Below are positions 33,698 through 34,632 of a stretch of DNA of 39,632 nucleotides, one piece after another. The notes beneath the pieces were generated by a model. The model did no database searches. It was given only the letters and a program-made list of their open reading frames with translations, and was not told the origin of the DNA. Numbering within the stretch: position 1 is the first letter of the stretch; each line of letters begins with the position of its first letter. This stretch comes from Acidobacteriota bacterium (GTDB lineage: Bacteria; Acidobacteriota; Terriglobia; Acidiferrales; 2-02-FULL-67-57): contig JACQTJ010000042.1 in assembly GCA_016210855.1 (NCBI GenBank), positions 1-39,632 on the forward strand, read 5' to 3'. Made by a program: the position numbers and the translations under genes.

Positions 33698-33773
33698 ACC
33701 GCCTCATCTTAGTCTTCAAGGGGCGGAAACACCACCACCGCGCTGGCGCGGATGCTGTGGTTATGGCGCTACC

Positions 33774-33781
33774 GGCTCGCG
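33774..33781. repeat. Left copy of an 8-bp direct repeat (possible target duplication)
   Basis: GGCTCGCG here is repeated exactly at 34588-34595. The two copies stand immediately outside the inverted ends of the AT-richer element. The direct match in fact extends to 14 bases (CTACCGGCTCGCGG at 33769-33782 and 34583-34596), partly because both copies are preceded by CTACC. Confidence 0.6.
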
Positions 33782-33886
33782 GGTAGTGGCTCATCTTGAG
33801 ATCAATCGCCAACCTGCGAGCTCTTACGAACTTGTTGCAAGCGGCAGTCCCGTTGTAGTATCAAATGCAGCCAGCAGAGGTGCAGT

Positions 33887-34168
33887 ATGCCCGAAGGAAT
33901 CACAAACCCGAAAGCAATCGCTGAGGAAGGCGAAAGAATCTATCTTGAAAGCTACAAGGCAGAGTACGAGAAAAAGTATGCTGGCAAGTTTGTAGCGATT
34001 GACATAAACACAAAAGAGGCGTTCTTGGACGATTATGCTGAAGGCGCGCTTGAAAAAGCGAAAGCCAAGTCACCACACGGCCTTTTTCATCTGATTAGGG
34101 TCGGTTCTCCTGGCGCGTTCCGCGTGAGCTATTCCTCTGATGCCAACTTGGACTGGATTTTTCAATAA
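33887..34168 (+). CDS. Small DUF5678-like protein of unknown function
   Basis: A 93-residue acidic/basic mixed protein without signal peptide or membrane segment. The first 30 residues look helical (EEGERIYLESYKAEYEKKY); then comes YAGKFVAIDINTKEAF, DDYAEGALEKAKAKSP and FHLIRVGSPGAF, which resembles the small beta-alpha-beta proteins annotated DUF5678 (GKWVAI...ALE-A...RV). Function unknown. AGAGG stands six bases before the ATG. The gene is AT-richer than the chromosome around it, lies inside the candidate element, and overlaps the next gene by 29 bases, suggesting coupled expression. A weak promoter-like pair (TTGCAA at 33835 and TAGTAT at 33856) has a poor 15-base spacing. Confidence 0.7.
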   Translation: MPEGITNPKAIAEEGERIYLESYKAEYEKKYAGKFVAIDINTKEAFLDDYAEGALEKAKAKSPHGLFHLIRVGSPGAFRVSYSSDANLDWIFQ

Positions 34169-34553
34169 CGCAGGAACACCCATATTGAAAATATCGGTTG
34201 GCGGAGTCTTTCCCCAGCTACGCCAAGATTTTGAGGCTGTGATCGACACAGGCTACACAGGTTTCTTGTCCATGCCCCTTGTCAGCGCATTCCCTCTAGG
34301 GCTGCTACTCTACGGAACAACTGGAGTAACACTCGCTGACGGTTCTACTTCTTACCGCCTTACAGGTTGGGGGCATGTAAGAGTCGGGGAGGAAGATCAG
34401 ACAGGCGTAATCATCCTTGAGCCTTCCGCTACAGACCTGCTAATTGGTACAGAACTGCTCAGGAAATTTCGCAAACGACTTGTCGTTTCGCACGAATCTG
34501 GCAGCGTGGCGCTGGAAGACGAACCTCCACAAAGAACCTCATTTAGCGATTGA
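34140..34553 (+). CDS. Retropepsin-like (clan AA) aspartic protease
   Basis: A 137-residue single-domain protein. VIDTGYTGFLSMP (34-46) is the DTG active-site loop with D36; LADGS at 65-69 is in the flap region and DLLIGTELL (99-107) is the hydrophobic-hydrophobic-glycine motif that closes the fold. Such single-domain proteases work as dimers. It has no signal peptide, so it is probably cytoplasmic. The first 12 residues overlap the previous gene in another frame; a TTG at 34185 is a possible later start. Clan AA proteases of this size with a small upstream partner recur in several bacterial phyla, but their substrate is unknown to me. Confidence 0.82.
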   Translation: MPTWTGFFNNAGTPILKISVGGVFPQLRQDFEAVIDTGYTGFLSMPLVSAFPLGLLLYGTTGVTLADGSTSYRLTGWGHVRVGEEDQTGVIILEPSATDLLIGTELLRKFRKRLVVSHESGSVALEDEPPQRTSFSD

Positions 34554-34587
34554 TCCTGCCCCGCAAACTCCAGAATGAGTCACTACC

Positions 34588-34595
34588 GGCTCGCG
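34588..34595. repeat. Right copy of the 8-bp direct repeat
   Basis: GGCTCGCG, identical to 33774-33781, lies directly after the right inverted end. Nine bases further on begins the -35 box of the rplM promoter, so the element sits immediately upstream of the ribosomal protein operon. Confidence 0.6.
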
Positions 34596-34603
34596 GCGGG
34601 TCG

Positions 34604-34632
34604 TTGACAAATCGGAGCGGCTCCAGTAAACT
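34604..34632 (+). promoter_or_regulatory. Sigma70-type promoter of the rplM operon
   Basis: A perfect -35 box TTGACA (34604-34609) and TAAACT (34627-34632, 4 of 6) are separated by 17 bases. Transcription should start at about 34638-34640, leaving a leader of fewer than 30 bases before the rplM ATG. Confidence 0.7.

Follow-up and report, generated by a model that had tools for sequence, protein, structure and literature searches.

The 806-bp interval 33782-34587 of the window (by which is meant the whole 39.6-kb stretch of acidobacterial DNA analysed, 39,632 nucleotides) is in all likelihood a mobile insertion cassette (MIC), a transposon that is non-autonomous and belongs to an IS1-like family. 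Mobile insertion cassettes carry passenger genes, and the passengers here are a small gene and, overlapping it, the gene for a retropepsin-like protease. The assignment follows from the ends that the interval shares with that family, from sister elements, and from relatives that are likewise free of a transposase. An initial annotation, made from the sequence of the window, had proposed a non-autonomous element moving a gene pair rather than an empty MITE, and both the sister elements and the transposase-bearing relatives considered below support that proposal.

As that annotation had it, the two ends are inverted copies identical at 12 of 13 positions and directly outside both stands an exact 8-bp duplication, GGCTCGCG (Table 1). 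Nowhere else in the 39.6 kb does an exact 8-bp flanking repeat occur together with inverted ends alike at 12 or more of 13 bases. The interval is also AT-richer than its surroundings, as claimed (GC about 0.48-0.54 within and 0.65-0.70 outside), and the small-protein and protease genes are indeed its only content; beyond these two cargo ORFs no transposase was found in it. What did not hold was a similarity of the ends continuing some 20 bases inward, the two being alike only weakly past 13 bp (15 of 25 overall); each does resemble the family consensus further inward. The direct repeat may be taken to be 14 bp long, CTACCGGCTCGCGG, because CTACC, with which the right inverted repeat finishes, also precedes the first duplication. 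All the other delimited family elements have a duplication of 8 bp, and the exact 8 bp here matches the length for the parental IS elements. That CTACC, at 33769-33773, abuts the target duplication on its left and is a mirror of the element end; it is there either by chance or through insertion next to an older end. An additional, subterminal, inverted pair may be a chance occurrence.

Table 1. Positions in the window of the element, its cargo genes and the adjoining promoter
Feature	Position	Strand	Remarks
Target-site duplication, left copy	33774..33781	.	GGCTCGCG
Left terminal inverted repeat	33782..33794	+	GGTAGTGGCTCAT; matches consensus of 20 family elements
Subterminal inverted repeat	33800..33812	+	GATCAATCGCCAA; 12/13 with 34543-34555
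Gene for 93-aa small protein	33887..34168	+	Pfam DUF5678 at E 0.0055, below cut-off
Gene for 137-aa retropepsin-like clan AA aspartic protease	34140..34553	+	IDTG motif, residues 35-38
Subterminal repeat partner	34543..34555	-	12/13 with 33800-33812
Right terminal inverted repeat	34575..34587	-	GGTAGTGACTCAT on minus strand
Target-site duplication, right copy	34588..34595	.	GGCTCGCG
Host rplM promoter-like site, TTGACA-17-TAAACT	34604..34632	+	Intact just outside element; conserved in relatives

Where might a transposase for such ends be found? A transposase profile search of the genome to which the window belongs (87% complete) gave no intact gene, the sole trace being a relic of about 25 codons on contig C7 (L092 1504-1578), beside a tRNA-Ser gene, and in the closest relatives there are fragments only. 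Use of a 98-aa fragment from G001, a genome of the same genus, as query turned up relatives, from the same order, whose transposases are full-length. The initial annotation had advised a search of relatives for an autonomous element with the same ends, and transposase-bearing elements of that description do exist: IS1-like elements of related Acidobacteriota have the same ends (consensus GGTAGTGGCTCAGTTTGA), 8-bp duplications, and a single-ORF DDE transposase accompanied by cargo. A first scan delimited ten with full-length transposases and exact 8-bp duplications (L098, L099, L100, L101, L103, L104, L105, L106, L113 and L114), the shuffled control giving zero, and looser settings added L109 (exact duplication) and L102 (7 of 8 bases). 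These 12 are 1.85-3.8 kb in length versus about 0.9 kb for the transposase gene, and none is bare; since they were drawn from the about twenty transposase matches most similar to the G001 fragment, the cargo-bearing share is that of a sample and not a census. The first 13 bases of the window element's right end are identical to both ends of one of them, L100 4982-7283, and its left end agrees at 12 of 13; the ends of L100 and L113 read GGTAGTGACTCATTTTGA, in which the first 13 bases are those of that right end. With the end pattern GGTAGTGNSTCANTTTG, 88 sites were present among the matches listed, in 33 of 61 relatives, and with the reversed pattern as control there were 0 sites among 61 relatives. 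The IS1-like family is common in this order of Acidobacteriota.

The transposase of the delimited parents is a single open frame of about 270-320 aa, in which the D, D and E residues are invariant. PF03400 was matched above its cut-off by three of the four transposases tested, and NF033558 with E values of 5e-16 to 2e-19, though at 59-71 bits, which is below the cut-off of 100. As to what the parents carry, an XRE-HTH/peptidase protein matching PADLOC PD-lambda-2_B is encoded in L098 (2688-4163, E 6e-47) and in L105 (3227-4390, E 8e-43), and PD-lambda-2 has been described as toxin-antitoxin-like (PMC9519451). SocA/Panacea proteins are cargo in L105 and L106, and in the latter a P63C protein is beside the transposase. 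A gene of about 175 aa adjoins the PD-lambda-2_B-like gene in both L098 and L105. A protein of 70-100 aa with the motif KGGxARAxxLxxxxRxxIAxxAAxARW is encoded just inside one end of L098, L099, L101, L103, L105 and L182, with a similar motif in L106 and L175; the two examples tested had no Pfam match, and the protein may serve the transposon as an accessory factor.

The gene pair itself is scarce, being present in 12 of 399 genomes of the class and in 2 of 95 of the order, where the other genome is G001 and the locus a different one. (In a scan of genome contigs a single-protein query yielded 0 loci, and a two-row alignment five.) In G001 the pair, 54-55% identical to that of the window, is inside a 1543-bp element with ends GGTAGTGTCCTAAgTCGTGTGG and an exact duplication, AGAAGGAC, which keeps a 98-aa C-terminal transposase fragment. 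In another family of the phylum the same two genes make up the cargo of an 833-bp transposase-free element (L118), with ends GGTAGTGG that are only 10 of 13 alike and a duplication, CGACTTCG/CGACTCCG, matching at 7 of 8 bases with one mismatch. At three loci from other families of the class (L195, L199 and L200) a C-terminal remnant of the transposase lies directly upstream of the pair on the same strand, and L200 retains the far end, GGTAGTGTCTCA. By the evidence from the window, G001, L118, L195, L199 and L200 the pair is therefore linked to the IS1-like family in six genomes. A search for other copies, also advised in the initial annotation, has thus found the same pair inside such elements, and with it further transposase-free cassettes and MITEs.

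Did the window element travel as a cassette, or did a complete transposase-plus-cargo element insert and only then lose its transposase where it stood, so that a transposase-free form never moved? The latter is possible, though we lean against it. The G001 copy, with 98 transposase residues kept, is just such a deletion derivative; one-ended relics with 3′ fragments of the transposase gene are present in the same genome (L139 and L140), and the remnants beside the pair in L195, L199 and L200 are of like import. However, no transposase remnant was found within the window element, the profile search having matched contig C7 only, the L118 copy is similarly compact at a different place in another family, and duplications also flank several cassettes that have other cargo and no transposase: L172, of 673 bp with one 203-aa ORF, has an exact one, and L182, of 1323 bp with two ORFs and again from G001, has one of 7 of 8 bases. 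MITEs with the same ends (L043, L185 and L180) all have exact duplications, and one of them, of 204 bp, is in the window's own genome (L043 1501-1704, contig C85; ends GGTAGTGGGTCAT..., duplication CCTTTCTT). By eye, the genes between which it lies are for a trypsin-like protease and a DMT-type transporter. In L173, L174 and L175 facing GGTAGTG ends are 569-838 bp apart with no flanking duplication, and between them are one or two ORFs, by eye for RibD/DHFR-like and GIY-YIG-like proteins.

To return to the mobile insertion cassette, its ancestor was most likely a transposase-plus-cargo element from which an internal deletion removed the transposase. The transposase of a related full-length element would then have acted in trans on the GGTAGTGnCTCA ends, and DDE-type transposition with an 8-bp stagger would have placed the cassette just upstream of the -35 of the rplM operon, duplicating 8 bp and bringing in, as cargo, a conserved two-gene unit whose small-protein gene overlaps that for the retropepsin-like protease. 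That deletion derivatives arise in this family is shown by the G001 remnant, and the compact L118 copy favours loss of the transposase before insertion. Both the mobilisation in trans and this order of events are what we infer from the comparisons. Counting against the cassette reading are the mere relic of a transposase in its own genome, the empty site not recovered to the base, the imperfect ends and duplication of L118, and the copies of the pair away from IS ends.

Some copies of the pair (L120, L121, L124, L125, L193 and L194) have no recognisable IS ends or link, and in L124 a tRNA-Leu gene lies some 250 bp away from it. Could the pair then have been moved by something else, an integron cassette, a Xer/pdif module or a tRNA-targeting integrase, with the transposon-like ends incidental? 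We consider this very improbable, as the boundaries in the window, in G001 and in L118 are GGTAGTG ends with duplications. Those other copies do mean, therefore, that the IS family is not the sole home of the pair, which also travels or persists by other means. That the pair is a fixed host operon, with inverted and direct repeats around it by chance, has next to no probability: the inverted ends are short at 13 bp and its own genome has no further copy of the whole element, but such a structure was seen in 0 of 40 random (first-order Markov) sequences, the ends match those of a transposon family having its own transposase, nearly all relatives are without the pair, and two other genomes have it inside elements with the same ends, so that chance repeats were rejected.

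What of the site of insertion? The -35 of the rplM promoter is at 34604. In G002, which is of the same genus, the epimerase and rplM neighbours are present, separated by an unrelated 655-aa ORF, and there is no pair. Its alignment with the rplM promoter begins at 34597, adjoining the duplication, and that of G004 begins at 34600, which fits insertion just upstream of the promoter. The comparison with an empty site that the initial annotation had advised was successful on this side only; across the insertion point the G002 DNA is diverged, with another gene in it, and a base-exact empty site was not recoverable from the relatives compared. The rplM locus of G001 was not found in its assembly. 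Two observations had been named as contrary to insertion, the pair in this place without the inverted ends, and an empty site without a single copy of the repeat, and neither was seen. Upstream of the epimerase gene in G002 (L035 8064-8093) is GGTAGGGGCCCTAATCTATGACACTACC, a pair of end-like sequences that face and directly adjoin each other; the intergenic region is the same as that of the window element, and this is perhaps the scar of an element.

The protease of the pair matches TIGR03698 (clan_AA_DTGF) with 35.5 bits (E 9.5e-9), short of the curated cut-off of 57.35, and its IDTG is invariant across 10 homologues. Its AlphaFold model (pLDDT 86.8) has as best Foldseek matches HTLV-1 protease (7e-5) and Rickettsia APRc (1e-4), and with a D-T/S-G catalytic loop and a predicted retropepsin fold the 137-aa protein has the characteristics of a retropepsin-like protease. 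The model of the small protein (pLDDT 76.8) gave no significant fold match. Its gene is directly upstream of the protease gene in the homologous loci examined, with the exception of L128, where tblastn did not call it and yet a similar ORF is present; in the window the two genes overlap by 29 nt and are probably translationally coupled. PADLOC had no family match for either protein, PHROGs gave nothing useful for the pair, and no instance was found in phages, plasmids or viral contigs, the viral scan being with one short pattern. Our guess, from gene layout, patchy distribution and the company of the IS family, is that the pair is a selfish or stress/defence module whose small protein regulates the protease or is processed by it; the idea of a toxin-antitoxin system is likewise a guess, drawn solely from layout and company.

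MICs, in which IS ends surround transposase-free DNA presumed to be mobilised by a cognate transposase (PMC3129680), and IS elements with passenger genes, termed transporter IS or tIS (PMC3129680, PMC7986276), are established kinds, MIC231 of Bacillus cereus (IS231, IS4 family; PMC2266710) being an example of the former. Like a MIC, the window element has inverted ends in common with transposase-bearing IS elements, passenger genes and no transposase, but its ends are IS1-like with 8-bp duplications and not those of IS231, its cargo is a retropepsin and a small protein, and its mobility is inferred. The parents L098-L106, L109, L113 and L114 resemble tIS in that the same ends enclose one transposase together with cargo; the window element differs in being without the transposase. 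It differs from MITEs, which have no coding capacity, by its two conserved genes. With the IS1 family the parents share short inverted ends, and their DDE transposase matches PF03400, above cut-off in three of four, and NF033558, below cut-off. Typical IS1 members join two overlapping ORFs by frameshifting. IS1 members have been described with two overlapping ORFs (ISCaa4, PMC3196728), whereas the transposase of the delimited parents is a single ORF scoring below the NCBI IS1 cut-off. Small compact gene pairs are known as transposon cargo from the toxin-antitoxin systems of Tn3-family transposons (PMC7157771), though there the transposon family is another one, and for the pair in the window a toxin or antitoxin role is putative. 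Bacterial single-domain retropepsins are also known, of the COG5550 type (PMC2642776) and as Rickettsia APRc (PDB 5c9b, PMC4140852); the window protease has the DTG motif and predicted fold in common with them, but is cargo-borne, has a small gene upstream and is of low identity to the solved structures. Within the literature searched, what is new is an IS1-like vehicle, cargo carried so regularly by its delimited members, and a retropepsin pair as recurrent cargo; no description of cargo-bearing IS1-like elements of such a kind was met there, a search of this sort being no proof of absence.

If the reading as a cassette is right, a very small transposase-free unit would move an intact and conserved two-gene protease module. 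In the family from which it comes, cargo was present in all delimited members whose transposase is full-length, some of it toxin-antitoxin- or defence-like (PD-lambda-2_B-like, SocA/Panacea). A broader view, rather unlikely as it stands, is of an Acidobacteriota IS1-like lineage in which cargo is the rule and is spread with and without the transposase. Such a lineage would deliver small toxin-antitoxin- or defence-like modules, and the retropepsin pair, carried by it repeatedly, would be a selfish or defence module of a new, protease-based sort. Both the movement of the cargo cassettes in trans and the possibility that the retropepsin pair acts as an addiction or defence module are now directly testable.
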